From Silvibacterium sp. (GTDB taxonomy: Bacteria; Acidobacteriota; Terriglobia; Terriglobales; Acidobacteriaceae): DNA of 45,383 nucleotides. Each line of letters opens with the position of its first letter. Within the stretch, counting starts at the first letter, position 1. The position numbers and the translations under genes are program-made. The stretch covers positions 1 to 45,383 of the forward strand of contig JAFAKX010000244.1 of assembly GCA_019234945.1 (NCBI GenBank). Direction: 5' to 3'. This document shows, in pieces, positions 12,240-37,631 of the stretch. The notes under the pieces are model-generated. The model saw only the letters and a list, made by a program, of their open reading frames with translations, was not told where the DNA came from and made no database searches.

Positions 12240-14678
12240 ATGTCAAGCTTTCTGCAGGACATTCGCTTCGCACTCCGGCAGCTGCGGAATCATCCAGGCT
12301 TCGCGCTGACGGCAATCCTGTCACTCGCGCTCGGCATTGGCGCGACGGTTTCGGTCTTCAGCATCATCTATGCCGTCCTGATGAATCCCTGGCCGTATGA
12401 CGGGGCAGATCGCATCTGCCTGTTGTCCTTTCTGGACAAAGCAGGAAACGAGGACAACTGGGGCGGCCTGACCGGACCACAACTTCGGCAGCTAAGCCAG
12501 TCCCCTGCCATTGAAAGCGTGATGGGAATTAACTTCTGGAGCCTGACGGTCACCGGCAGCGACGTTCCGGAAGACGTGCAGGGGATTTATCTGACGGCAA
12601 ACAGCCTTCAGATGCTTGGGCTACCGGCGATGCTGGGGCGAAACTATGTCCCATCAGACGCGCCCGATGGCCAGGAGCCGCAGCAGGTGGTTGTCCTAAG
12701 CTACAAATTCTGGCAGCGGCACTACAACGGAGATCCAACGGTTGTCGGCAAGACTGTTCAACTTGTTCACAAGACCTACACGATTCTGGGCGTGCTGCCT
12801 TCGCGTTTTACCTGGCTGGATGGCGATGTCTATCTGCCGCTGAAATTGTCTTCATCGCAGACAGTCGAATACGGTGTGATGGTCAAGCTGCGACGCGGAG
12901 TTTCGACCGCAGCGGCAGCGGCCCAATTGCAGCCGCTGATCCAGCAGTTCGCCAAAGAGACGCCAAATCATTTTCCCAAACAGTACAAACTTGAACTCCG
13001 GAACATCAGCTATCGCTATCATGAGCAGTTAGGCGGCACTCTGGGCCTGCTATTTGGAGCTGTCGGGCTGCTGCTGGCCATTGGATGCGGCAACGTATCG
13101 ATCCTGCTGCTGGCGCGCGGATCCGCGCGGCAGCATGAGTTCGCGGTACGGTCGGCGGTAGGAGCAAGCGGCTTTCGCATCGTGCGTCAGCTTCTGACAG
13201 AATCGCTTATTCTGGCTCTCACGGGTGCGGGGCTTGGCGTAGTTTTGGCCTATCGAATCCTCGGATGGATAGTAGCCCGCCTGCCAGAGTACTCCTTTCC
13301 GCACGAAGCTGATTTTCACGTGAACCTTCCTGTGCTGTTCTTCAGCGTGGGCCTGGCTCTGCTCACCGGGATACTTTTCGGCTTGTTCCCTGCCCTGCAG
13401 CTCGCACGTCCGCAGATCAACCAGGTGATGCAATCGAGTTCGCGCAAAGTTGCAGGCACGGTGCGCGGTAAACGGTGGCATACAGTTTTGATTGCGGGCC
13501 AGATTGCGTTGACGCTGCTGCTGATGTCTGCGGCAGGCACGGCCATCGAGGGATTTGTGCGCATGATGCGGATTCCGCTTGGCTATGATCCTCATCACGT
13601 CATGTCGGTCGGAATTCCGGTGCACGACAATACCTACACAAGTTTGGCCGAGCGGGTCAGTTACTTCCAGCAGCTTCGAGAAAAGGTAGCGGCGCTGCCC
13701 GATGTAACCTCCACGGGGCTTTCGACGAATGCGACGCCTCCGTGGAGCGGGTGGGACCAGCCATTCGAGTTGCTGGGAAAGCCCGCAGGAGAAGAACAGA
13801 AGGGGAGAATCGAATTCGTCGATCCGGGATACTTCAGCACGCTGCAAATTCCGCTGATACGGGGACGCATCTGGGATGCAACTGAGGTAGCGCATAGCGC
13901 GCCGTTCGCCATCGTGAATGAGACTCTTGCAAAGCACTATTTTCCGAACGGCGATACCCTCGGACATTCTGTAAAGATTGCCACGTTGAAAAACGAGCCG
14001 CCTTATACACTAGCGCCGCCGGGAAGTGATGGGTGGCTGCAGATTGTCGGGGTGGTTGCCGATTCGCTGAACGACGGCCTCGATAAACCGGTGAAGCCTT
14101 CGATTTTTCTCCCCTATTCGCTCTACATGTGGATGCACACGCAGATCCTGGTGCGGAGCCGGGTCGATCCTTTATCCATTGTGCACAGTGTTCGGCAACA
14201 GATCGCTGCGGTTAATCCCGACCAGCAGGCGTTTGGCCATGTTGATGACCTGGAAACGTGGATCAGGCACGAACCGGAATATGCGCGGGGACGGCTTGTG
14301 TCGATCCTCTTTGGGGCGTTTTCTATTCTTGCATTGGTGCTCGCTGCTGTAGGTCTATTCAGCGTGGTGTCCTATTCGGTGGTGCAGAGGACGAACGAGT
14401 TCGGCATTCGCATGGCGCTGGGCGCACAGAAGAAAGACGTGCTTTGGATTGTGCTGGCGTCGGCAGCAGTGAGTGTCGGATCGGGACTGGCTGCGGGACT
14501 AGCGCTCAGTTTCGGGTTGAACAGGCTGATCGGCCGGTGGGTCGAGCACGCCGCGCATGATCCGCTGCTGATTCTGGCGACTTCTTTCGTAATTCTGGCG
14601 GTTGCCGGGCTGGCGTGTGTGGTTCCGTCTCGGAAGGCGTCGTCGGTTGATCCTATGACGGCATTGAGGTGTGAGTAG
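12240..14678 (+). CDS. ADOP-type MacB/FtsX-like ABC permease, second copy
   Basis: This 812-residue protein has the same plan as the permease at 1704-4214: FLQDIRFALRQLRNHPGF, a first transmembrane helix with LSLALGIGATVSVF, MacB core, FtsX block (about residues 270-410), second MacB core, and a final FtsX block ending VVPSRKASSVDPMTALRCE. Sequence differs substantially from the first copy, so this is family expansion rather than recent duplication. No ATPase or adaptor is adjacent. The ATG at 12240 has GAGAGG upstream. Substrate unknown. It converges with lepB, with 22 bases between the stops. Confidence 0.9.
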   Translation: MSSFLQDIRFALRQLRNHPGFALTAILSLALGIGATVSVFSIIYAVLMNPWPYDGADRICLLSFLDKAGNEDNWGGLTGPQLRQLSQSPAIESVMGINFWSLTVTGSDVPEDVQGIYLTANSLQMLGLPAMLGRNYVPSDAPDGQEPQQVVVLSYKFWQRHYNGDPTVVGKTVQLVHKTYTILGVLPSRFTWLDGDVYLPLKLSSSQTVEYGVMVKLRRGVSTAAAAAQLQPLIQQFAKETPNHFPKQYKLELRNISYRYHEQLGGTLGLLFGAVGLLLAIGCGNVSILLLARGSARQHEFAVRSAVGASGFRIVRQLLTESLILALTGAGLGVVLAYRILGWIVARLPEYSFPHEADFHVNLPVLFFSVGLALLTGILFGLFPALQLARPQINQVMQSSSRKVAGTVRGKRWHTVLIAGQIALTLLLMSAAGTAIEGFVRMMRIPLGYDPHHVMSVGIPVHDNTYTSLAERVSYFQQLREKVAALPDVTSTGLSTNATPPWSGWDQPFELLGKPAGEEQKGRIEFVDPGYFSTLQIPLIRGRIWDATEVAHSAPFAIVNETLAKHYFPNGDTLGHSVKIATLKNEPPYTLAPPGSDGWLQIVGVVADSLNDGLDKPVKPSIFLPYSLYMWMHTQILVRSRVDPLSIVHSVRQQIAAVNPDQQAFGHVDDLETWIRHEPEYARGRLVSILFGAFSILALVLAAVGLFSVVSYSVVQRTNEFGIRMALGAQKKDVLWIVLASAAVSVGSGLAAGLALSFGLNRLIGRWVEHAAHDPLLILATSFVILAVAGLACVVPSRKASSVDPMTALRCE

Positions 14679-14700
14679 CTAGGACTCTGCAAAGCACTTC

Positions 14701-15270
14701 TTAATGCACGACCCCGAGATCATCTGCCGGCCAGTAGACAAACGCGGCCTTGCCATAAATGAGGTCCCGTGCGACAGGCCCGAAGTCGCGGCTGTCGCTC
14801 GAGATGGAGCGGTGGTCGCCCATAACGAAATACTGATTTGCCGGGATGACGATCTCGGGCATGGAGCGCGAGTCGCGATAGGCGCGCGGGACGTACCCCT
14901 CGTCGATGCGCTCGCCGTTCACGTAGACGCGTCCGGCATCGATGCGCAGCGAATCGCCGGGAAGCGCGATAACGCGCTTGATGTAGCTCTTTTCGGGATC
15001 ACGTGGGTAGTGGAAGACGACAACGTCTCCGCGGGAGATCCTCTCAAAGCGATAGACGAACTTATTGATAAAGAGCCGGTCCTGATCGCGCAATTGCGGC
15101 TGCATCGAGGTGCCTTCCACACGCACCGGCTGATAGAGAAAGGTGATGATCATGAACGATGCGGCAATCGAGATCAGCACATCGCGAACCCACAGGCGCA
15201 GGTGACTGACAGTCGCATTTGGTTTTGAAGATTCGGGTTCTGAGGGTGCTGCTTGTGTCGTTTCGTTCAT
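14701..15270 (-). CDS. lepB: Signal peptidase I
   Basis: This 189-residue membrane-anchored serine protease removes signal peptides from exported proteins. One N-terminal membrane segment (about residues 27-46) is followed by the catalytic serine box GTSMQPQL (S55) and the catalytic lysine in KSYIKRVIALPGD (K98). Box D (YFVMGDHRSISSDSRDFG) is also present. It is a short form, close to Gram-positive length, as is common outside the Proteobacteria. The ATG at 15270 lacks a strong ribosome site. Confidence 0.95.
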   Translation of the reverse strand: MNETTQAAPSEPESSKPNATVSHLRLWVRDVLISIAASFMIITFLYQPVRVEGTSMQPQLRDQDRLFINKFVYRFERISRGDVVVFHYPRDPEKSYIKRVIALPGDSLRIDAGRVYVNGERIDEGYVPRAYRDSRSMPEIVIPANQYFVMGDHRSISSDSRDFGPVARDLIYGKAAFVYWPADDLGVVH

Positions 15271-15301
15271 GCTGCTTGCGGATGAAGTTTCTGCTTATAT
15301 T

Positions 15302-16219
15302 TTACTGACATCCGAAGGTTCCGAGCGGGCAAAGAACCTTCTGCGGTCTGGAGGGCTTTGGCAAAGGCTGCGGTTGGTTGCCCGTGGGCACGAAAGCAGT
15401 CCTGGGATTGCCGTCAGCCGAGGCCACATCGGCTTCCTTTAACTGCAGCGGCCGCTGAAAGACCATCTCGATCGTCTGGCCTTCCGGAAGCACGACCTCG
15501 TCGCCTCGGGTAAAAAGCGTGTAGAGGAGACCACCGGCAGCCCCGGCAGCAGCTCCGTAACCGACGCCCGCACCCGGGTGGTCTGAGGCCGCGCCGATAA
15601 TCCCTCCCAGGCCTGCGCCGGTAGCCGCGGTGGTCGCCACGGTGGCAGCATCTTTACCCTTGCCACTGGACTGCTCTATCGTGCCCTCGCCGTTCTTCTT
15701 CACGGTCGGGCCGTCGGAACCTGGCAGACCGTCCACGGCTCCCGGAATGCTCACCACCGATCCGTTCGGGAATATCAGGGTGGTGAAGTGCATCGTCACC
15801 TGCGCGCGGCCCTTCACCCGGCCCGGACGCACTACATTGTCGATAACTCCCTGGACGTAGACGCCGGAGGGGATGACCACATGGCCTCCTGCGACCACGG
15901 GGAACGCGGACGCGAGATAAACTCCGTCGCCGGGCTGAGCCGTTTTGGTATTCACGCCGCTGCGCAGGGCGAGTAGGACCTTGGTTCCGGCGGGCACTTC
16001 GATGGTCTTGCCTGCCTTATCAGCGGCCGCAGGCGCAGACTGGGAAGCAACGGCATTATCGGCAGCCTGGGGCGCGGCGGCAGTTTCTGGAACGGTTTGA
16101 GCCGCCGGAGTAGGGGTTGTCGGCGGCGGAGAGTCAGCGGATTGGCCCGTGGTCTGGGCAGCAGCGGCGACCGAGAGAGCGGCAGTTGCCCAGACAAGAA
16201 AGATCGGTGTTTTCCTCAT
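15302..16219 (-). CDS. Secreted VirB10/TrbI-like beta-domain protein with glycine zipper
   Basis: This 305-residue protein has a signal peptide (MRKTPIFLVWATAALSVAAA), a Pro/Ala/Thr-rich linker to about residue 75, and then a beta domain. That domain reads VPAGTKVLLALRSGVNTKTA, VVIPSGVYVQGVI, GRAQVTMHFTTLIFPNGSVV, resembling the order of strands in VirB10/TrbI C-terminal domains. A Gly/Ala-rich zipper (TGAGLGGIIGAA, AAAGAAGGLL) comes next, and a last strand TIEMVFQRPLQL. No other type IV secretion gene is present, so it acts in another setting. The ATG at 16219 has GAGAGGAGAG upstream and is preferred over the longer frame to 16321. The C-terminus has two cysteines (CPLGTFGC). Confidence 0.65.
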   Translation of the reverse strand: MRKTPIFLVWATAALSVAAAAQTTGQSADSPPPTTPTPAAQTVPETAAAPQAADNAVASQSAPAAADKAGKTIEVPAGTKVLLALRSGVNTKTAQPGDGVYLASAFPVVAGGHVVIPSGVYVQGVIDNVVRPGRVKGRAQVTMHFTTLIFPNGSVVSIPGAVDGLPGSDGPTVKKNGEGTIEQSSGKGKDAATVATTAATGAGLGGIIGAASDHPGAGVGYGAAAGAAGGLLYTLFTRGDEVVLPEGQTIEMVFQRPLQLKEADVASADGNPRTAFVPTGNQPQPLPKPSRPQKVLCPLGTFGCQ

Positions 16220-16305
16220 AAGAACTCTCCTCTCCGCTTGCCCCATTTTCGCCAGGTAGACCCGGTGCGCTGACAAATTTATAGACGCAGTTCCGCAAGA
16301 GCGAG

Positions 16306-17289
16306 TTAGCGGGGCGCCCATGCGTCAACAATTAGTTTAGCAAGGCGCGCCATGACCACTTCGCCCTGATTGTCGGGTGTCCAGCTCTGGTCCTGATTAG
16401 CCCAGGTGAATTCGGAGATCACGATCGGTCCATGCTTCGTGAAAACTACGCCGACATCGTTCCGAACGGCGTCGAGCGAACCGGTCTTGTTGCCGATGTT
16501 TGACTCAGCTTCGGACGTGTCCTGCGCTTCGAGGTAGCGTGGAATGCTGTTGTGATAGAACTGGTTCTTCAGCATGTGCATCGCAGCGTCGCAGGGCGGC
16601 TTCGTCTGCGCATTCGGCAGGTGATCCGTCCCCTGCGATTGTCCCGGAACCGCTCCTGATGCCCCGGGAGGGTCCAGGTCGCAGGCAACCAGGCGCTTCA
16701 TCACACTGGCCATCTCGCGGGCCGTTGTTTTGCCGAGGCCAAAAGTCTTCTGATCGGCAGGCATGGGTCCCAGGGGCGGTTTGTAGACCTTTTTATAGAG
16801 CCAGGTGTCTTTCAGGCCGAGCGAGACGATGCGGTCGTCAATGTTCTTGAGGCCGAGATGGTCGATGGCGAGGTTGGTCGCGGTGTTGTCGCTAAGGACG
16901 ATCATGAGCGTCAGCACGTCCTTGAATGTCAGCGTCTGCGGGGTATCAAAGAAAGGCAGGATTCCCGATCCTGAGACCTGATCGTCGTGACTGAGCATGA
17001 TTTTGTCTTCAAAGTGCGCCTTGCCTTCGCGAATCTGCTGGAGCGCTTCGTACAGGATCGTCAGCTTGATGACAGATGCGGTCTGGACGGGCGTGTCGGC
17101 ATCGAGAGCGACCGTTTTCCCGGTGGTCAGATCTTGGGCATAGAGCGCGACCTTGCCCGGGTGCGATGCGGCGATGGACTGAAGGCGTGACGCAAGCGCG
17201 GCATCCTCTTCTCCGTGCAGGGTGAGTGCGCAGAAAATAAGCGGCAAAAAAGCGGCGAACAGGAAAAGTCGTTGGGGCGTCCGGATCAT
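16306..17289 (-). CDS. Class A beta-lactamase-like serine hydrolase lacking the omega-loop Glu
   Basis: This 327-residue protein has a signal peptide (MIRTPQRLFLFAAFLPLIFC) and the class A serine-enzyme motifs: S72-x-x-K75 in ASVIKLTI, SDN (S133) in VLSDNTATNLAI, and K268-T-G in NKTGSLDA. Between SDN and KTG, where class A enzymes carry the deacylating glutamate in an ExxLN omega loop, residues 160-191 contain no glutamate. A 40-residue insertion with a cysteine precedes KTG. It may be a D,D-peptidase-like or penicillin-binding enzyme rather than an efficient beta-lactamase. It is divergent from the class-C-like hydrolase with only 44 bases between. Confidence 0.85.
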   Translation of the reverse strand: MIRTPQRLFLFAAFLPLIFCALTLHGEEDAALASRLQSIAASHPGKVALYAQDLTTGKTVALDADTPVQTASVIKLTILYEALQQIREGKAHFEDKIMLSHDDQVSGSGILPFFDTPQTLTFKDVLTLMIVLSDNTATNLAIDHLGLKNIDDRIVSLGLKDTWLYKKVYKPPLGPMPADQKTFGLGKTTAREMASVMKRLVACDLDPPGASGAVPGQSQGTDHLPNAQTKPPCDAAMHMLKNQFYHNSIPRYLEAQDTSEAESNIGNKTGSLDAVRNDVGVVFTKHGPIVISEFTWANQDQSWTPDNQGEVVMARLAKLIVDAWAPR

Positions 17290-17301
17290 TTCAGCTACTA
17301 T

Positions 17302-17321
17302 AGGGCCTGCTTACAGGCCCT
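17302..17321. promoter_or_regulatory. Perfect palindrome between two divergent serine-hydrolase genes
   Basis: AGGGCCTG and CAGGCCCT form a perfect 8-base inverted repeat around CTTA. It occupies nearly half of the 44-base divergent gap. A TATAGT hexamer on the minus strand (17302-17297) abuts it. One regulator could control both genes from here. A related element lies at 7239-7262. Confidence 0.5.
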
Positions 17322-17333
17322 GGGCAAACTCCT

Positions 17334-26883: not shown

Positions 26884-28353
26884 TCACTGCGGCATGATGA
26901 TCCGGAAGTTTCCGCTGCAGTGCAGCATACTCATCAGGTACAACATGCCGTCATAGTAGCGCTGCTCTCCGGATGGAATCGGCAAGTTCCAGAGCTCTTC
27001 GAGAAACGCCTTCGAAATAGGCCCCGCCTTCGCGGCGAGGCCGCCCACGGCGGTTGTCGCAACCATGCCCGTCGAGTGCCGATTGGAGAGCGGCTTGCCG
27101 TCCAGCGTGTACTTGTCGGCGAAGCTCTTGATTCCCTGCCCGCTGAGAAATCCCTGAATCCGGTCGCTCAACCCGGCTTCGCGCGGGTCCTTTCGCCACC
27201 ACGAATAATCCACCGACCAGTTGCTCACGCTTCTCCATGAGTCGTAGCCGAAGGGCCACGAGCCGTCGTGGCCGGCGATCTGCGTCATGTCGAAATTGTT
27301 GCGGTCGGGGGTCAGGCCGGTCTGCGGTCCGGTCACCCTGGTGAACATTTCGCGGCTCACGTCGGCAGCTTTGGCCCAGAAGGCACGGTCCTCGACGGGT
27401 CCCCAGCGCGACCACAGCTCATAAAAAGCGGGAAGGTGATACGAGGCATCTGTGTAACCGCCGGGCTCGTCGGGTACAAACCGGACCATGAAGTAGTTCT
27501 CCTCGACCATCGGCCCAATTGTTTCCGTATGCGGTGGAGGGCGGAAGACTGTATTCAGAGATTTCCCTTGCGCGAGGGCGCGATTGTTGGGGCTGGGCCA
27601 GGCATGGTCCGGAGGAATGAACGGCGGATCGTCGGGATGGATGCGGAAGGGGCTCGTTCCCGCGAGTACCGCATGATGCCGCATGCCGCGGAGGATTTTG
27701 TCGGCCTCGGCCTGATAGTTATAGATGCCCTTGCCGTTGCCCCATCGATTGGCGGCGAAATACAGGGCCATCACAAAGTACTCTTCCCCGTCGGGAGCGG
27801 CCCCAGTTGCCCGCGGCGTGCCGTCGGTGTTCATCGACCAGGCAAAATAGCCGACCGAAGGGTTCTTCGGATCCGTGATGAGCATGTAGGTGTTGGCCCA
27901 GTTCCAGATGGCGTCAAACTCGCGCTTCTTGTCGAGCTGGACGGCGATCATCATGCCGTAGCTCATCCCTTCGGTGCGCGCATCGTTGTTCGCCCAGTCG
28001 GTGATGTAGGCCAGAGGCCCGTTGGCATTCGCGCCGGTTTCGAAGTAAATCCGCTCCTCCTGTCCGTCGCCATGGAAGAGCTGCTGGAAGGCCTTATCGA
28101 TCTTGACGCGGCTCTCGGCCTGAGTATGCCCAAGTTCTCCAAAGAGGTCCCGGTAGTGCCCCGTCCGGTAAGCGCCGTCACCATCCCCGGGCATGCTGGG
28201 AATCTCGGGCAGAGGGGCATTCTGGTGCTGCCACGGCTGCACGAGCAGTGGTGCGGATTGCTGCGCAGGCTTGTTTACCTGCGCGCCAGCTGCTCCGACC
28301 AATTCAAAAGCAAGAACAGAAATACTGAGAGCCCAAGACCAAGACGAAAACAA
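26884..28353 (-). CDS. Secreted GH8 glycosidase (oligoxylanase-like)
   Basis: This 489-residue protein has a signal peptide (MFSSWSWALSISVLAFELVG, ending near GAAGAQ) and a glycoside hydrolase family 8 domain. The acid catalyst is likely E128 in NDARTEGMSYGMMIAVQLD, a signature of reducing-end xylose-releasing exo-oligoxylanases. WPFGYDSWRSVSNWSVDYSW holds the candidate base aspartates. Other GH8 subfamilies act on cellulose or chitosan, so substrate is inferred. The TTG at 28353 has GAGGG about 7 bases upstream. A GH10 xylanase 8 kb away supports xylan use. Confidence 0.88.
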   Translation of the reverse strand: MFSSWSWALSISVLAFELVGAAGAQVNKPAQQSAPLLVQPWQHQNAPLPEIPSMPGDGDGAYRTGHYRDLFGELGHTQAESRVKIDKAFQQLFHGDGQEERIYFETGANANGPLAYITDWANNDARTEGMSYGMMIAVQLDKKREFDAIWNWANTYMLITDPKNPSVGYFAWSMNTDGTPRATGAAPDGEEYFVMALYFAANRWGNGKGIYNYQAEADKILRGMRHHAVLAGTSPFRIHPDDPPFIPPDHAWPSPNNRALAQGKSLNTVFRPPPHTETIGPMVEENYFMVRFVPDEPGGYTDASYHLPAFYELWSRWGPVEDRAFWAKAADVSREMFTRVTGPQTGLTPDRNNFDMTQIAGHDGSWPFGYDSWRSVSNWSVDYSWWRKDPREAGLSDRIQGFLSGQGIKSFADKYTLDGKPLSNRHSTGMVATTAVGGLAAKAGPISKAFLEELWNLPIPSGEQRYYDGMLYLMSMLHCSGNFRIIMPQ

Positions 28354-30276: not shown

Positions 30277-31623
30277 TCAGTTCCCTGCCTGCTCCTCGAC
30301 GAGCTCCGGCGGAGCCTCCACGATGCCGAGCTGAATGTAGATGGGGCGCATCTCGTCGCGAATATCGTGACGGCGCGCCCAGAACCATGCCGCGCCGAGG
30401 ATGCAGCAGGTTCCGGTCAGCATGACCGTGTGCGGAGCCCCGATCCAGTGCGCGAGCGACCCGGCCAGCAGGCTGCCGAATGGGGCCATGCCGACGAACG
30501 CCGCCGTGTAGTAGCTCATCACACGTCCGCGCTTGTCTTCCGGGACAAGCGTCTGAATGATCGTGTTACTCGCGGTCATGCCCTGCATCATGCCGAAGCC
30601 GACGATGACCATCAGCAGCATCGAGAGCCAGACGTAGCGTGAGAGGCCGAAGCAGATGAGCCCCACGCCGAACATGAGGGTGGCGATAGGGATCATCTTG
30701 AGCAGGCCGCGCACGGTTTTGCGAAGGACAAGAGAAAGGGCGGAAATGAGGGCTCCGACGCCTGCCGCCCCCATGAGGAAGCCGAGAGTGTGCGGGCCTC
30801 CATGGAGCACTTGTGCGGCGAATACGGGCATGAGGACCACGTAAGGCATGCCCATGAGGCTGACAAGGGCGAAGAGCGTGAGAATGCTGCGCACGGGGAT
30901 GAAAGTGGAAACATAGTTCCAGCCCTCGCGCATCTGAGCGAACATGGAATCGGCGGTGCGCCTCGCTTCGTCGACACGCACGCGCATGAGCAGCAACGAG
31001 ACGATGACAGCGATGTAGCTGATCCCATCGATGAAGAAGCACCAGCCTTCGTTGGTGGCGGCGATCACGATTCCGGCGAGCGACGGGCCGATGAGCCGGG
31101 CAAGGTTGACCATCGAGGAGTTGATAGCGATGGCGTTCGAAAGATCGGAGCGGTCCGCGACCATTTGCACCATGAAGGACTGCCGGCTCGGCATGTCAAA
31201 GGCATTGATGGCGCCCTGAAGCACGCTCAGCGCGAGCACGTCGTGGATGGTGATCCGATGGCTGAGCGTGAGGAACGCCAGCGCAAGCGACTGGACCATC
31301 GCGAGGGTCTGCGTCCAGACGAGCACCTGGCGGCGATTGAGGCGGTCGACCAAGACCCCGGCGAAAGGAGCGAGCAGGAACGTGGGGATCTGACCGACGA
31401 AGCTGACGGTTCCGAGCAGCAGGGCCGATTTCGTGAGCCGGTAAACGAGCCACGAGGTGGCGACGCGGGTCATCCACGTGCCGATGAGCGAGATGCTCTG
31501 GCCGCCGAAGAAGAGCCGGAAGTTGCGATGCCGCAGCGCGCGCCAGGCGTGCGAGAAGTCGCGGCGTGCTTCGGGAGCGTTCGGCGATTCTTCAGCCGGT
31601 GCGGCAGGGCGATTCGTGTTCAT
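30277..31623 (-). CDS. MFS exporter (EntS/MFS_3-like)
   Basis: This 448-residue, 12-helix major facilitator has an EntS-like pattern: FRLFFGGQSISLIGTWMTRV, PFAGVLVDRLNRRQVLVW (motif A-like) and AINAFDMPSRQSFMVQMV. Such proteins export siderophores, macrolides or other small molecules. It is the last gene of a same-strand group with the outer-membrane-type protein 57 bases upstream, so it may be part of the same export unit. A cytoplasmic N-terminal tail of about 25 residues is Ala/Pro/Glu-rich. Substrate unknown. Confidence 0.88.
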   Translation of the reverse strand: MNTNRPAAPAEESPNAPEARRDFSHAWRALRHRNFRLFFGGQSISLIGTWMTRVATSWLVYRLTKSALLLGTVSFVGQIPTFLLAPFAGVLVDRLNRRQVLVWTQTLAMVQSLALAFLTLSHRITIHDVLALSVLQGAINAFDMPSRQSFMVQMVADRSDLSNAIAINSSMVNLARLIGPSLAGIVIAATNEGWCFFIDGISYIAVIVSLLLMRVRVDEARRTADSMFAQMREGWNYVSTFIPVRSILTLFALVSLMGMPYVVLMPVFAAQVLHGGPHTLGFLMGAAGVGALISALSLVLRKTVRGLLKMIPIATLMFGVGLICFGLSRYVWLSMLLMVIVGFGMMQGMTASNTIIQTLVPEDKRGRVMSYYTAAFVGMAPFGSLLAGSLAHWIGAPHTVMLTGTCCILGAAWFWARRHDIRDEMRPIYIQLGIVEAPPELVEEQAGN

Positions 31624-31680
31624 TCGGGCTCGGCAGAGTCCTTCGGACTCCAGCAGATTGGATACGGCAGCAAGTGGATT

Positions 31681-32979
31681 CTATCTCTGTCCTTGACCGA
31701 CGGCCCGTATGCGCAAAAAGACGACAACGCCGACCGGATCGGAGCCATACACAGGCCTGAGGACCGGCCCCGGCGTGTAGGCTGTGACCTGCGCGCCCAG
31801 CGCGGTGCGGAGGTGAGGCAGCACATCGAAGTCGCGGTCGTATCCGAAGGTGTAAGCCCGCACTCGTCCTGCAGGTTGTTCTTCGAAGCCGGGCGGCCCG
31901 GGTTGTTCGCCGAGCAGCAATTCAGTGGTGCGATCCACATTCTCGATGCGTGTCCAGACATAGTTTTTCACGGCAAAGTGCAGGGTGGATTCGAGCAGAT
32001 AGCTGTTCTGGATCAGGTTCGTCGGGATCGCGCGGGTGCGGCCCCAGGCCAGCGTAGAAGCCCAGTTCCCTTTTGCACCGTTGCCGAGTGGGCGGTTGTA
32101 CATGAGCGAGGCAGTCATGCGCTCCTGGTCTTCGGTCGGGTTGAGTTGCTCGGGGCTGTGCAGGCGTCCGTACGAGTACTGGCCGCTCCAGTTGCGGCGG
32201 GGCTGGACGGTCAAGCGCGTCGACCATGAATCGATGGGCCCCTGCTGCACCTGCCAGCGGTGCTCGTCTGGCTCGCGCCCGTGGAAACCGCTGGCTTCGA
32301 TGCGGAAGATCCCATGTGTCAAGCCGACGGTTACGACGTCGTCGGCGATGTGCGTCGAGTCTTCCTGGTGATGTCCCAGCGTGGCGACGGGGTTCTCCGC
32401 GGCTGAGGCACGGTGCGGATAGGCAACGGGACCGATGGCAGGATCCCCAACAGGCGCGGCATAGAAGCTGAGCAGCGTTCGCTCGCCCACACTCCAGTCA
32501 TAGAGCGCGGCCAATTCCATGACGAAGTCGTGCGGATGCTGCCCATCGACGATAGGCTTGCCGTAGGCGGTTTCTCCCTGCTGGAAGAGCAGTGGATATT
32601 GGCGCTCTGACACAGTCGCCGGTTCGAGGCTGAGCATGGTGCGGAACGTCAGCTGGCCATGGCCGAGCGTATGCTGAGCCATCGGCATGAACCAGTTGGT
32701 CGAAAAGAATTTATCCGCGCCGCGCGGGTTGGTCTGCTGAATGTCCGCAACAAAGGCAGTCGCATGGAACATGAGCATCCAGCCGTCATACATGGCCATC
32801 ATCATCGGCATTGGGGTCGAGCCTGGCTCGGCGCTGGTGCCGGATGTTGCGTGCATCTCAACCGACTCAAGGAAGCTGTCGGCTCTGCCGCTCATATTCA
32901 TCGGCATGGACATTTCGGGCTGCTGGGCTGCGGCGGAGGCAGTTATCCCGAGCAGCAGAACGATGCATCGTACGTACAC
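31681..32979 (-). CDS. Met-rich outer-membrane-type beta-barrel protein
   Basis: This protein of about 432 residues starts MYVRCIVLLLGITASAAAQQ, a clean signal peptide. The mature N-terminus is very Met-rich (PEMSMPMNMSG; TPMPMMMAMYDGWMLM), suggesting soft-metal ligands such as Cu(I). Later parts alternate polar and aromatic residues like an outer-membrane barrel (SGQYSYGRLHSPEQLNPTED; WASTLAWGRTRAIPT). The motif DGQHPHDFVMELAALYDW is notable. It is not TolC-like. The GTG at 32979 with GGGAG 7 bases upstream is preferred over the GTG at 33033, which lacks a ribosome site and a usable signal. Function inferred only. Confidence 0.72.
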   Translation of the reverse strand: MYVRCIVLLLGITASAAAQQPEMSMPMNMSGRADSFLESVEMHATSGTSAEPGSTPMPMMMAMYDGWMLMFHATAFVADIQQTNPRGADKFFSTNWFMPMAQHTLGHGQLTFRTMLSLEPATVSERQYPLLFQQGETAYGKPIVDGQHPHDFVMELAALYDWSVGERTLLSFYAAPVGDPAIGPVAYPHRASAAENPVATLGHHQEDSTHIADDVVTVGLTHGIFRIEASGFHGREPDEHRWQVQQGPIDSWSTRLTVQPRRNWSGQYSYGRLHSPEQLNPTEDQERMTASLMYNRPLGNGAKGNWASTLAWGRTRAIPTNLIQNSYLLESTLHFAVKNYVWTRIENVDRTTELLLGEQPGPPGFEEQPAGRVRAYTFGYDRDFDVLPHLRTALGAQVTAYTPGPVLRPVYGSDPVGVVVFLRIRAVGQGQR

Positions 32980-33053
32980 GAAATTTCTCCCGATCAAGAG
33001 GAAGGCTTTGCTGAGAACAAACGTCCGCAGCACGGCTGGACGATCGGAGAAAC

Positions 33054-33395
33054 TCAGATTCGCAGATGGAACAGAGGCGGGGAGACAGCTTCGGACGCTG
33101 CTACGGGTCCCGTGGAAAGAACGGCCGGCTCCGGCGTAATAGCGAGAGTCTGAACAACAAACGGGACCAGAGCGGCGGGAACAACCGGCTGAGCCGAGGG
33201 CAGCCGTGTTGGATGCGTACAGCCTTCGATCTGGGAAATGCTATGCTGGCCATGAGCTGCGGGGCCGACGCAGCATGCGTGCGGATCGTGGGGCAAAACG
33301 CAGCTCGTTTCACAAAGCGCCGCCGACCACGACGCAGCGATCATAATCGCTGCCAGCAGGATCGCAAGTGCGGGACGAAGCCTCACGGAACCCAT
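33054..33395 (-). CDS. Small exported Cys/His-rich protein
   Basis: This 113-residue protein begins MGSVRLRPALAILLAAIMIA, a signal peptide ending near SAALCET. The mature part has a dense metal-ligand patch, CETSCVLPHDPHACCVG followed by HGQHS and EGCTHP, then a Pro/Val/Ala-rich tail with no cysteines. The ATG at 33395 lies one base after the stop of the DHA2 exporter gene (TAG-A-ATG), implying coupled translation. The longer frame to 33431 has no ribosome site. It resembles small periplasmic metal-binding proteins of copper-resistance loci in style only; I do not recognise the family. Confidence 0.68.
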   Translation of the reverse strand: MGSVRLRPALAILLAAIMIAASWSAALCETSCVLPHDPHACCVGPAAHGQHSISQIEGCTHPTRLPSAQPVVPAALVPFVVQTLAITPEPAVLSTGPVAASEAVSPPLFHLRI

Positions 33396-33396
33396 T

Positions 33397-35004
33397 CTAA
33401 TGCACTGCGATCTCGCCGCTCCCTCCTCCATGCGGATGATTTTTCTGTAGTAAAAACGTCAGCGGAACCATGAGGATTGCGGCCACGCACATGATGTAGA
33501 AAACGTCGATATAGGCAAGCACCTGCGATTGCTGGATCAGCTGGCTGTAGATCCGCCCTTGAGCCAGATGCCCTGCGTTGCCGGGACCCATGCGGGGGTC
33601 GAAGTAGTTGGTAAATGAGCTTACCTGCTGCTGGAGATTTGCGTTTACGGGGTTCAGATACTTGAGCAATTGGTCCTGGTGAAACTGGGCGCGCTCCACG
33701 ACGCCTGCATTCGTCAGCGAGATGAGAATGCTGCCGCCGATGTTACGGACGAAGTTGATGAGTCCGGCGACCTGGTTGTTCTTCTCGCGCGGCATGCCGA
33801 AATAGGCGGCCGTTGTTACGGATATAAAGACCAGAGGAATGGAATACACCTGGAGGATGCGGAGCCATGAGTTTTCGCCGAAGCCCAGGCCAAGGTTTAA
33901 CCTTCGCGCCGTGATGAAATACGCAAAAGCGAAGCCAGCAAAGCCGAAGGCTATGATGTTGCGCGCGGGAAAATGCGTAACGAGCTGTCCGGCGATGGGA
34001 ACAATCAGCAGCAGCACGAGTCCGCCGCCGGAAAGAGCAAGGCCGGCCCACGTGGCGGTATAGCCAAGGGAACTCTGCATGAATTGGGGCTGGAGCACGG
34101 TAGTCGCGTTCAAAAAGCCGCCCGTGAGCAGCATGAGAAAGCAGCAGACGGCGAAATTGCGGTTCTTGAGAAGTTTCAGGTCCATCACCGGACTTTTTGC
34201 GAACCACTCCCACAGGATCAAAGCCACGAAGGATGCGATGAAGGTAACGGCGCAGGTGACGATGAAATGCGAGCCGAACCAGTCATTCTCCTCGCCTTTA
34301 TCGAGCATGATCTGAAGGGAGCCCATGGAAATGACAAGCAGGGCCACACCGGTATAGTCCAGCCGGAAGAGGTTCTCGCGGTCAGCTCCCATCCAGGGAG
34401 GATCTTCAACAAGCCGATTTGTGAGAAAGATCGCGAGGATTCCGACCGGGATGTTGATGTAGAAAATCCAGTTCCAGCTGTAATTGTCGGTGATCCAGCC
34501 GCCGAGCGTGGGGCCGATGGAGGGTGCGAGCACGGCGACGATTCCGTAGAGGGCAAAGGCCAGTCCCCGCTTCGCCGGCTCGAAGGAATCGGCCATGATC
34601 GCCTGCGCCATGGGCTGCAGTCCACCGCCTCCCGCTCCCTGCAATACCCGAAACAGGAGGAGGAGGGGGAGGGATGGAGCGATTCCGCATAGGAATGAGG
34701 CGATCGTGAAGATCACGATGCAGGTCATGAAGAACCGCTTGCGGCCCAGGACGCTGGCAGCCCATCCGCCCATGGGAAGGACGACGGCGTTCGATACGAG
34801 GTATGCAGTCAGGACCCAGGTGCTCTCGTCCTGGCTGGCGCCGAGACTGCCGGCGATGTGAGGAAGCGCCACGTTGGCAATGGAGGTGTCGAGCACCTCC
34901 ATGAATGCTGCCATCGCGACAGTCGCGGCGATGACCCAGGGGTTGGCCCTGGGCCTCCAATTCTCCAGCGCGACTAACTTTGGCTCGGCGGTGGCTGCTG
35001 CCAT
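33397..35004 (-). CDS. DHA2-family (EmrB/QacA-like) MFS exporter
   Basis: This 535-residue membrane protein has about 14 helices and the DHA2 pattern: AFMEVLDTSIANVALPHIAG, LTAYLVSNAVVLPMGGWAA, SVLGRKRFFMTCIVIF (motif A), FRVLQGAGGGGLQPMAQAIM and PTLGGWITDNYSWNWIFYIN (motif C). EmrB proteins normally work with an HlyD-type adaptor (EmrA) and TolC; neither is next to it. Instead the next genes encode a Cys/His-rich exported protein and a Met-rich barrel. The ATG at 35004 follows palindromes at 35031-35062. Substrate unknown. Confidence 0.9.
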   Translation of the reverse strand: MAAATAEPKLVALENWRPRANPWVIAATVAMAAFMEVLDTSIANVALPHIAGSLGASQDESTWVLTAYLVSNAVVLPMGGWAASVLGRKRFFMTCIVIFTIASFLCGIAPSLPLLLLFRVLQGAGGGGLQPMAQAIMADSFEPAKRGLAFALYGIVAVLAPSIGPTLGGWITDNYSWNWIFYINIPVGILAIFLTNRLVEDPPWMGADRENLFRLDYTGVALLVISMGSLQIMLDKGEENDWFGSHFIVTCAVTFIASFVALILWEWFAKSPVMDLKLLKNRNFAVCCFLMLLTGGFLNATTVLQPQFMQSSLGYTATWAGLALSGGGLVLLLIVPIAGQLVTHFPARNIIAFGFAGFAFAYFITARRLNLGLGFGENSWLRILQVYSIPLVFISVTTAAYFGMPREKNNQVAGLINFVRNIGGSILISLTNAGVVERAQFHQDQLLKYLNPVNANLQQQVSSFTNYFDPRMGPGNAGHLAQGRIYSQLIQQSQVLAYIDVFYIMCVAAILMVPLTFLLQKNHPHGGGSGEIAVH

Positions 35005-35309: not shown

Positions 35310-36443
35310 CTAAGGCGTAGGGTTCCCAGATTGAGCGGGCACGGCAGATGGCGAGGGTGACGCGTCATTTACTGCCCAATAGCTGGCTCGCGCTACGACA
35401 TGCGCGCCATAATCCTCAGCAAGCGAGACCTTGATGGTGTGGAGGCCCGGAGTCAGGTCCGTGGGGCGAAAGCTCAGCATGTAGCGGTTGTGGGCATGAT
35501 TCGCAACTTCGGCCACGCGATTCTCGAAGCCTTTTTCGGTGGTGAAGGTGCCGTATTCGCCTCCACTCATCGAAGCCAGCGTCTTCGGAGTGTTCTTGCG
35601 CATCGCATTGATCGCCATGACTACGGGCGCAAGCAGATTCAGCTCGGTGCCTCCATTGGTGTTGCCTTTGCCCCAGTCGATGAGTTCCGCCGTGGCGGGT
35701 GAAAATGTCAGGCTGAGCACAAGCGTATTGCTGGCGCCGATGCGCTCAACGAGTTGAGGAATGGTTACGACGCGGCTGCCGTGGTCGCGCGTCTCGCTGA
35801 TGAGCAGCAACACGCGGCGGTGGTCCGGCGGCCGTTTCTCGAGCAGCCCAATCGAGAAGCCCGCGGCGTCGAGTATCGCCGCGCCTCCATCACCCGGCGG
35901 CAGCTGCTGAAGGTCACGCTGGATGTAGGCGATGTTTTTCTGGAATTCCTCGAGATAGACGGGCTTCGAGTCAAAGACGACCAGAGCGACCTCGCCGCGG
36001 TCCTCACCGGTAAAGAGCTCGAGCAGCGGGCCAAGGTGAGCAAACTTGTCGAACTCCAGGGCGGCGTCACGGCCACGCTCCACACAGATGACCAGCGACA
36101 CGGGAGACGAATCGAGGTCCTCGTCCACGTGCACGCTTTGCCGTACACCGTTGTCGAGCAGGGTAAAGTCTTTGGGCTGGAGACCGTACACGACAGCTCC
36201 GGAAGACTTTTCGATAAGTGTGGGAACCAGCACGACGCTGGTATTGATGTGGATCGTCGGTGGCGCAAGCTGATCGGCCGGTATCGGAGCCGGCAAGTTC
36301 ACGGCGGGCACGGGCTGCCTCGCGGCAGGCGGCTGCGGTTGCTGCGGCGGCTCTCCGGGAAATGGCTCCTGCGCCCCGCAAACGGCCGACATGGCCGCGA
36401 CGAGCAGCAGCAGGTGAAATGTTTTTCTGATCCTGCTCAACAA
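35310..36443 (-). CDS. Secreted VWFA-related acidobacterial-type protein with degenerate metal site
   Basis: This 377-residue protein has a signal peptide (KTFHLLLLVAAMSAVCGAQE), a Pro/Gln-rich linker, and a beta segment (INTSVVLVPTLIEKSSGAVV, LQPKDFTLLDNG) that typifies the acidobacterial VWFA-related family. A von Willebrand A-like domain follows (about residues 110-300), ending in YMLSFRPTDLTPGLHTIKVS. Where the MIDAS motif DxSxS is expected, the protein reads SLVICVERGRDA, so the metal site is lost. The TTG at 36443 is preceded by GGGGA at good spacing. Function unknown; surface interaction is the family guess. Confidence 0.85.
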   Translation of the reverse strand: MLSRIRKTFHLLLLVAAMSAVCGAQEPFPGEPPQQPQPPAARQPVPAVNLPAPIPADQLAPPTIHINTSVVLVPTLIEKSSGAVVYGLQPKDFTLLDNGVRQSVHVDEDLDSSPVSLVICVERGRDAALEFDKFAHLGPLLELFTGEDRGEVALVVFDSKPVYLEEFQKNIAYIQRDLQQLPPGDGGAAILDAAGFSIGLLEKRPPDHRRVLLLISETRDHGSRVVTIPQLVERIGASNTLVLSLTFSPATAELIDWGKGNTNGGTELNLLAPVVMAINAMRKNTPKTLASMSGGEYGTFTTEKGFENRVAEVANHAHNRYMLSFRPTDLTPGLHTIKVSLAEDYGAHVVARASYWAVNDASPSPSAVPAQSGNPTP

Positions 36444-36500: not shown

Positions 36501-37631
36501 TCAGCGCCCCGCCAAACGTGTATCAACCGCGTCGCGAAGTGCGAAAAACGCCGGAGCGGGCTCGTAATCCGCATAAAAGGGCAGACAGCGCTGCGGCTTG
36601 CCGTCGGGACGCGCCCACTTCGGTCCATTCAGCCATGTGTAGCGATCGGTAATGCCCCAGGTAAGCACGGCATCCACGTTGGGCTCTGCAACCATCATGG
36701 TTACGTAATCGCGATAAATGCGGGCGATGGCCGCATCACGCTCCGACTCGGAGCCTTCGAGCTTTTTCTCGTCGACGTCGAGTTCGGTCACAAAGACACG
36801 CAGGCCCATCTGGCGAAGCTCGCGTACAAAGTCGCGCAAGCCCTTGCCGGGCGCGGGGTTCTGCGTCTTTAGATGACTCTGGACGCCGACGGCGTCGATG
36901 GGCACGCCCCGTTTCTTCATCCCGCGGACAAGCGCCAGCACGGCCTCACGCTTTTCGGTCTCGTCCGGAGCGTCCGTTTCGATGGCGTAATCGTTATAGG
37001 TGAGCAGCGGGGCTGGGTCCGCCTCGCGCGCTGTGCGGAAGGCGAGGTCAACGTAGTCCGGACCAACAAGCTCGAGCCATGGCGATTTGCGCATGCCGTT
37101 GGGAAGCCCGCTCTTCGGGTCGATGGCCTCGTTAACCACGTCCCAGGAATGCAGCTTGCCGGCGTACCGGCCGGCCACGGTCCTGATGTGTTCGGTTAGA
37201 ATCTGGCGGGCGTTGTCCTTCGTGACTGTCGCGGCAAACCAGTCTGGAATGGCCACATGCCAGCAGAGATTATGCCCGCGCACCTTCCGCCCGTGCGCGG
37301 AGGCGAAAGCGACGATAGTATCGGCTCCGCTGAAGTTGAACTTATCCGGAGCGGGTCGCAAAGCTTTCCACTTCATCGCGTTTTCGGGAACGAGGATGTT
37401 CGATTGCGCCGAGACCAGGCCGGCGTATTCAGGCTCGCCGGTCAGCTTTTCGGGGACAACAGCACAGCCGACCAGCAGGCCGTGCGCGTCGGCATGTGCC
37501 TGAAGGGAGTTCGCACCCGATACGTCGGGAACGGCGGCTGTCCGACCGGTTTGTTCTGCCCAGAGGTGTTGTGTCGCACTTGCAGCCGCACCTACGGCTG
37601 CCACCCTCAGGAACTCCCGGCGTGTCTTCAT
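36501..37631 (-). CDS. GH10 endo-1,4-beta-xylanase, probably Tat-exported
   Basis: This 376-residue protein starts MKTRREFLRVAAVGAAASAT, a twin-arginine signal (RREFL). The GH10 barrel shows VPENAMKWKALRP, RGHNLCWHVAIPDWF, the acid/base glutamate in WDVVNEAID (E168) and the nucleophile in VFVTELDVDE (E283). It hydrolyses internal beta-1,4 links of xylan. The start overlaps the stop of the 77-residue gene by 4 bases (ATGA). Together with the GH8 enzyme it could convert xylan to xylose. Confidence 0.94.
   Translation of the reverse strand: MKTRREFLRVAAVGAAASATQHLWAEQTGRTAAVPDVSGANSLQAHADAHGLLVGCAVVPEKLTGEPEYAGLVSAQSNILVPENAMKWKALRPAPDKFNFSGADTIVAFASAHGRKVRGHNLCWHVAIPDWFAATVTKDNARQILTEHIRTVAGRYAGKLHSWDVVNEAIDPKSGLPNGMRKSPWLELVGPDYVDLAFRTAREADPAPLLTYNDYAIETDAPDETEKREAVLALVRGMKKRGVPIDAVGVQSHLKTQNPAPGKGLRDFVRELRQMGLRVFVTELDVDEKKLEGSESERDAAIARIYRDYVTMMVAEPNVDAVLTWGITDRYTWLNGPKWARPDGKPQRCLPFYADYEPAPAFFALRDAVDTRLAGR

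Follow-up and report, generated by a model that had tools for sequence, protein, structure and literature searches.

Four same-strand genes lie close together on a 45,383-nucleotide (nt) contig of Silvibacterium sp., an acidobacterium (the window; contig C139 of genome G000, which is 72% complete), and a first-pass annotation took them for a single, unusual metal export unit: an EmrB-type DHA2 exporter, a small Cys/His-rich protein, a Met-rich barrel and a second exporter of the major facilitator superfamily (MFS). The window in fact holds two modules side by side, one consisting of the DHA2 exporter and an EntS-like MFS, the other of the small protein and the barrel. The latter two we read as one unit, in which the small protein is probably a regulatory leader of the CutF or CruR type, acting with either sign. 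Computation supports this from five sides: the tail of the small protein, the pairing of a spacer arm with the Shine-Dalgarno sequence (SD) of the barrel gene, the fold of the barrel, the copper genes in its neighbourhood and the independence of the two modules. The features of the leader-barrel unit, all on the minus strand, are these:

33054-33395 (ATG at 33395), minus: Cys/His-rich, putatively exported small protein of 113 amino acids (aa), a putative metal-sensing nascent-chain leader, with CETSC, CC, a His cluster and C-terminal SPPLFHLRI-stop
33057-33083, minus: codons of the leader C-terminal tail SPPLFHLRI, a candidate arrest motif (by the tail-blind test and codon variety)
32980-33053, minus: 74-nt intergenic stem-loop from leader stop to barrel start (predicted fold)
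33042-33053, minus: 5' arm GTTTCTCCGATC (anti-SD), beginning at the first base past the leader stop codon
32983-32995, minus: 3' arm GATCGGGAGAAAT, containing the barrel SD GGGAGA
31681-32979, minus: porin-like outer-membrane beta-barrel, Met/His-rich, with conserved QHPHDFVMEL; the proposed target of the leader

A putative leader with a conserved end and a pairing spacer

The small protein has the composition first ascribed to it: a hydrophobic N-terminal stretch precedes CETSC (a CxxxC motif), and CC and several His follow. Neither it nor the barrel of the window matched any Pfam or NCBIfam model, and 19 other small open reading frames (ORFs) found upstream of barrels likewise gave no Pfam family. 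Barrel loci including the window were collected (126, reduced to 117 by removal of nine duplicates) and searched for a same-strand ORF of at least 60 codons and at least two Cys, with an LR[IVTL]-like, RPPRA or RFRA tail, ending within 420 nt upstream of the barrel or at most 30 nt into it. Such a leader is present in 80 of the 117 loci; an ORF of this kind with an LR tail, the only tail counted in the controls, occurs in 12 of 3073 control windows, and the RPPRA and RFRA tails account for four of the 80. One doubtful leader (L091) was dropped later, leaving 79.

Because this rule itself looks at the tail, and the constancy of Arg at position -2 is then circular, the pick was repeated with the last 40 residues ignored. 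A Cys-rich exported ORF was found in this way in 65 of the 117 loci; 62 of the 65 end in [LIM]R[IVTL], 51 of them in exactly LRI, as against one of 79 control ORFs chosen by the same body rule. The Leu, Arg and Ile codons of the tail vary synonymously, and therefore the constraint acts on the peptide. The identity of the stop codon was considered as a signal and rejected: all three stops occur (TGA 47, TAG 21 and TAA 7 of 75). Counted from the C-terminus, the body of the leader is poorly conserved (the commonest residue has a mean frequency of 0.21 at positions -4 to -50) and the last three residues are kept, position -2 being fixed by the selection rule. PP stands among the last 15 residues in the window (SPPLFHLRI) and in 57 of the 79 leaders; CxxxC occurs in 37 of the 79 and in all 13 near relatives, and in 26% of shuffled bodies; of the 62 LR-tailed leaders with a CC, 40 have it 55-61 residues before the end, and in the window the distance is 71.

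The second line of evidence lies in the spacer. The best start of the barrel is GTG at 32979, six bases past GGGAGA, which gives the 74-base spacer (an alternative ORF start lies at 33033). In the predicted fold, GTTTCTCCGATC pairs with GATCGGGAGAAAT, for -28.6 kcal/mol over 82 nt from the stop, and the arm-SD duplex of the window is better than in mononucleotide shuffles (z -2.96, p 0.01). Across the loci this comparison gives p ≤ 0.05 in 24 of 78 and p ≤ 0.01 in 11 of 78. The pairing is locus-specific: among 66 loci with spacers of 55-140 nt, each arm pairs with its own SD at -12.77 kcal/mol, against -10.74 when partners are permuted, and none of 5000 permutations did as well; p is 0.0002 both in the 12 near loci and in the remaining 54. 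In the 39 loci whose spacers reach at least 82 nt, the true arm scores p 0.003, and a stretch lying 28 nt beyond it, used in its place, p 0.87. We read this locus-specific pairing as covariation. The spacers are also stable as a whole: in 67 loci with spacers of 30-140 nt and an SD energy of -4 or better, the median z against dinucleotide shuffles is -1.75, compared with -0.05 for 53 control same-strand gene pairs (p 7e-8). An Rfam scan gave no match at gathering score, and one chance-like match inside the second MFS gene. Promoter- and terminator-like sites are about as frequent as in shuffled sequence and lend no support to a promoter of the pair's own.

A porin-like barrel, at some loci near copper genes

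The barrel of the first-pass annotation stands, and can be described more closely. Met-rich stretches are present, and an AlphaFold2 model (35 sequences; pLDDT 85.5, pTM 0.85) predicts a porin-like barrel, with 16 strands counted from the DSSP line. Nearly all of the best 50 Foldseek matches are general porins, led by 8jto (E 5e-12; TM 0.47 by query and 0.58 by target; about 10% identity). The protein thus shares its predicted 16-strand fold with general porins such as OmpF, OmpC and Omp38, but differs from them in sequence, in an invariant QHPH.F with further loop His and in a Met/His-rich N-terminus. The invariant His are residues 148 and 150 (of QHPH), 189, 203, 204 and 210, in two long loops (117-152 and 179-211). 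Sequence comparison places it nowhere: Pfam over the 35 barrel sequences gave best E values of 0.015-0.2, each in one or two members; among porin family profiles, one member of the 35 weakly matches Porin_4 (E 0.015) and the window protein matches none; and solved structures offer no relative by sequence (best E 0.67 and 1.1). What is predicted is a porin-like protein of the outer membrane whose family has no name.

CopB/PcoB is likewise an outer-membrane barrel with a Met-rich part that is found in copper gene neighbourhoods. Membership in it was rejected: PF05275, which we take to be the CopB/PcoB family, matches none of the 35 members at E up to 1.

The barrel occurs in 171 of 300 genomes of the same bacterial family (E ≤ 1e-3), in 69 of 297 genomes across the phylum and, in a search of plasmid proteins, in three of 72,556 records. 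At 36 loci, relatives of the barrel come from records labelled Acidobacteriota, Rhodanobacteraceae, sphingomonads, Hyphomonadaceae and Caulobacteraceae.

What ties the pair to a metal is the company that the barrel keeps. Copper-type P-ATPases lie in nine of 76 barrel loci, where a background of 56 profile matches over 31 genomes (about 117.6 Mb) would lead one to expect about 0.45; the ratio is rough, as it sets a tblastn count against a profile count, and two of the nine loci (L017 and L024) gave search seeds. In L017, L024, L025 and L031 the ATPase is directly downstream on the same strand, and three of these four are named by profile. In L028 and L030 a histidine kinase and a response regulator stand beside the barrel, followed by TolC and a resistance-nodulation-division (RND) adaptor; heavy-metal models fit the L028 kinase and regulator best, at scores below their cut-offs. 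On a Pontibacter plasmid the barrel is placed between a copper-translocating P-type ATPase (one small gene intervening) and the gene of a four-helix copper-binding protein, and on two Sphingobium plasmids it is near MerR, glutaredoxin and DUF305 genes, one of them also with a heavy-metal ATPase. No known copper gene is adjacent in the window, and most of the 76 loci have none of these copper-type neighbours. From gene content, small protein and barrel appear to be linked with a soft metal, copper being the likeliest.

The ORF ahead of the barrel on the Pontibacter plasmid (L137, 8265-8720) encodes a Met-rich lipoprotein-like protein rather than a Cys-rich leader.

CutF, CruR and the reading of the leader

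In the literature compared here, two exported proteins are worked out as copper sensors that act in the nascent state, CutF and CruR. CutF of Rhodobacter capsulatus has a CxxxC motif, a C-terminal ...GPPPRL and an SD stem-loop before the next gene (PMC9973294, PMC8456105); with copper on its exported Cys motif, the chain is held back through the C-terminal motif, and the stem over the SD of the next gene opens (PMC9973294). The window leader resembles it in being short and, to judge by its hydrophobic N-terminal stretch, putatively exported, in its CxxxC, in PP near the C-terminus with an Arg-hydrophobic end (...SPPLFHLRI beside ...GPPPRL), in the short intergenic stem-loop over the next gene's SD and in the copper genes that neighbour related loci. 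By the features used for CutF-like proteins (PMC9973294), it is below 150 aa (113), has PP within its last 15 residues and carries a Cys motif; it lies 74 nt from the barrel gene, and an SD-burying stem is predicted from the fold and the locus-specific pairing. It differs in its tail, LRI, and in its target: CutF precedes a multicopper oxidase, the window leader an unnamed porin-like barrel. The loci here are also mostly acidobacterial, and 'acidobact' is absent from the main texts of the two CutF papers, as from those of PMC9426467 and PMC10987492; PMC12992588 mentions acidobacteria once, in a phylum-wide motif count.

CruR, of the DUF2946 group (PMC9426467), is likewise a Cys-rich exported upstream ORF ahead of an outer-membrane protein gene, with a rather fixed spacing from Cys motif to C-terminal motif; its arrest motif, RAPP, recurs near the end of the leaders of L205 and L218. 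The window leader has CxxxC rather than CXXC and LRI rather than RAPP (it ends FHLRI, and C-terminal RAPP is confined to those two loci), and it has a 74-nt spacer with an SD stem where CruR has a 162-nt Rho-dependent region. Membership in DUF2946 was tried and rejected: PF11162 matches neither the window leader nor the 19 other small upstream ORFs. The literature searched describes CutF, CruR and RAPP leaders, and among the entries listed there was no LRI leader or barrel of this family; the published list of 5,334 CutF-like proteins may already include some of the leaders.

The reading that we think probable puts these observations together as follows, with the metal, the stalling, its sign and the activity of the barrel entering as we infer them. 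The leader would be read cotranslationally at the membrane, so that, with the C-terminal PP...LRI tail still in the ribosome exit tunnel, its Cys/His part is already exposed beyond the cytoplasm and can encounter a metal, copper in all likelihood. A ribosome pausing at the tail would cover the 5' arm; the stem would open and the barrel would be translated. If there were no pause, the stem would close over the SD and the barrel would be off. Copper would more likely strengthen the pause and so raise the barrel, as for CutF; the barrel might then handle copper at the surface or let copper species through. The DHA2 exporter and second MFS would belong to a separate exporter module that stands next to the leader-barrel pair in a few genomes.

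The sign of the response can be argued both ways. Copper-induced expression is modestly favoured, because a stem that covers the SD makes a pause the ON state and because the named neighbours are resistance genes. The opposite sign, counted within the leader reading and by itself unlikely, supposes that copper relieves the pause and lowers the barrel, which would then be an uptake porin for copper or something else. CruR works in this way: its sign is opposite to that of CutF, copper relieving the pause (PMC9426467). The RAPP tails of L205 and L218 match it, and a porin fold suits uptake; but those neighbours that are named serve efflux and resistance, and a short spacer whose stem covers the SD resembles CutF, not CruR with its 162-nt spacer.

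A second perspective does away with nascent-chain sensing: the small protein would be a real periplasmic copper-binding protein, translationally coupled to the barrel and nothing more. As the stem starts directly past the stop, it would be opened by every ribosome that completes the small protein, and in a stable protein CxxxC and CC could plausibly bind copper. The pattern of conservation speaks the other way, as a body hardly conserved by position is joined to three kept residues at the very end, a result with which the tail-blind test agrees; moreover, the tails of two loci in another clade hold RAPP, a known arrest motif. We think plain coupling improbable, and hold to the small protein as a regulatory leader.

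That reading has its own difficulties, which are of three kinds. The first concerns distribution: 37 of the 117 loci have no leader by the tail rule (three of them, L018, L067 and L084, contain little or no upstream sequence; in the others, the near relative L014 among them, none is recognised); in a phylum-wide set of 40 loci from other families, one of which (L214) comes without upstream sequence, the LRI tail is present in only three (L185, L208 and L216), RAPP in two and another tail in three. The second concerns the RNA: burial of the SD taken alone reaches p ≤ 0.05 in 18 of the 67 loci and five of the 53 controls (rank test p 0.09); the SD core of the window itself is buried no more than in shuffles (p 0.54); and RNAalifold on a MAFFT alignment of nine near-locus spacers gave no consensus pairs, which we attribute to stem registers that differ between loci. 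The third concerns the models: the porin fold carries no information on copper; fused to LepB, the CutF tail by itself caused no stall (PMC9973294); and a 2024 view held arrest by CutF and CruR to be undemonstrated (PMC10987492). Arrest by CruR was shown later, with toeprinting described in PMC12992588.

The leader varies between clades. The leaders of L205 (7197-7610, minus) and L218 (4210-4641, plus) are Cys-rich, exported and furnished with CxC motifs, and end SRAPPRR and SRAPPRL; they have no DUF2946 match. Those of L199 (409-783, FLRNSSLIR), L206 (3938-4330, FLRNVSILS) and L215 (4443-4832, YLRHASILC) are CC-rich with [FY]LRxxS tails. In the remaining 32 of the 40 phylum-wide loci no leader is recognised by these tails. 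Three loci labelled as Hyphomonad (L040, L043 and L044) have leaders ending RPPRA, and on the two Sphingobium plasmids ORFs ending APPPPRIA and APPPPKIA lie two genes ahead of the barrel. That one barrel family stands behind several arrest-like leaders is to us the best sign that the LRI protein has the same kind of job. A bolder statement would be that Acidobacteriota possess a new class of arrest-type leader, marked by LRI at the stop and different from RAPP, which detects copper while it is still a nascent chain on its way out and turns on a new family of copper porins, and that across clades this porin has been re-wired to LRI, RAPP or RPPRA leaders, leader and target being exchangeable; we put it forward tentatively, its chances being a little short of even.

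In L195 an ORF that is very rich in Cys and looks exported lies about 390 nt ahead of the barrel; it has none of the arrest-like tails.

If the leader reading is right, it adds a phylum to copper sensing of this kind, a new end motif to be tried for ribosome arrest and an outer-membrane protein that likely handles copper. The small ORFs without a name ahead of the barrel (in 62 of the 117 loci under the tail-blind rule) would gain a function, and the study of the barrel family a starting point. One question becomes directly testable: does a Leu-Arg-Ile end at the stop codon stall ribosomes?

The DHA2 exporter as a neighbouring module

The other module, with a candidate partner elsewhere in the genome, consists of the following:

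33397-35004, minus: DHA2 (EmrB-type) MFS exporter, matching the TIGR00711 profile; no adjacent EmrA or TolC; a neighbour module, itself no fixed partner
30277-31623, minus: MFS_3/EntS-like exporter, which accompanies DHA2 with or without the leader-barrel pair
contig C76 of G000, 14561-17322 (L167, 4562-7323): OEP(TolC)-EmrA pair, then a VTT/rhodanese gene, with no EmrB beside

Much of the first description of the run holds. With the starts given, the four genes are separated by 1, 74 and 57 bases on one strand; the first falls within the EmrB subfamily (TIGR00711, 420.6 bits against a cut-off of 230.2); the last matches Pfam MFS_3 (its EntS match is below that model's cut-off); and, just as had been said of the locus, a profile search of the window contig found no EmrA-type (TIGR00998) and no OEP (PF02321) match.

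The proposal that the four genes form one export system fares differently. If they did, barrel and DHA2 should travel together, and no such preference is seen: DHA2 occurs in 217 of 300 family genomes at E ≤ 1e-150, and in 80 by hits of at least 650 bits; 40 of these 80 have the barrel as well, against 131 of the 220 genomes with no such hit (Fisher p 0.15, uncorrected for relatedness). DHA2 adjoins the barrel in two of the 36 loci (L009 and L013; a weak match in L014 is another MFS), and the adjacency is found in at least seven genomes among the matches listed (G000, G175, G159, G160, G119, G070 and G072). Gene order was compared in 20 stretches around DHA2 or barrel genes: in L139, L141 and L145 DHA2 is followed directly by the second MFS, the leader-barrel pair being absent; in L148 the pair is parted from DHA2 by a 1164-residue outer-membrane protein; in L155 barrel and MFS are present and DHA2 is not; and L140 stops at a contig edge. 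A four-gene complex was accordingly rejected. A single metal exporter made of all four products would agree with the tight spacing in the window and with the order DHA2, small ORF, barrel, MFS that recurs in L149, L150, L151, L153 and L154 (the MFS of the last being cut by the contig end), but is made very improbable by the lack of preferential co-occurrence, by the three stretches that hold DHA2 and MFS alone, by the 34 of 36 barrel loci with no DHA2 beside them and by an orphan EmrA that is found in nearly all of the DHA2 genomes. What survives of the proposed metal export system is the link of small protein and barrel to a soft metal, most likely copper, and an outer-membrane part of a non-standard kind; the single exporter does not, and for the small protein the part of a regulatory leader seems likelier than that of a pump component.

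This orphan EmrA is that of contig C76. Of the 80 DHA2 genomes, 78 hold a relative of it (E ≤ 1e-125), as do 73 of the other 220, a comparison again uncorrected for relatedness. The window DHA2 is like EmrAB-TolC in being an EmrB-subfamily permease and unlike it in having neither EmrA nor TolC alongside; since the genome has a TolC-EmrA pair at another place, with no EmrB beside it, the partners that seem to be missing may just be encoded apart from the exporter. The C76 pair is a candidate for this part, and the co-occurrence no more than a lead that the two work together. Sets of OEP, EmrA and MFS that look complete are found on contigs C119 and C144.

Around the run, a VWA-like gene (35310-36443) is upstream of DHA2 and has the same place in 11 of the 16 DHA2 stretches L139-L154; in L149 a dienelactone hydrolase lies between the two. 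On either side of the region lie glycoside hydrolases, of families 8 and 10 (26884-28353 and 36501-37631 of the window).

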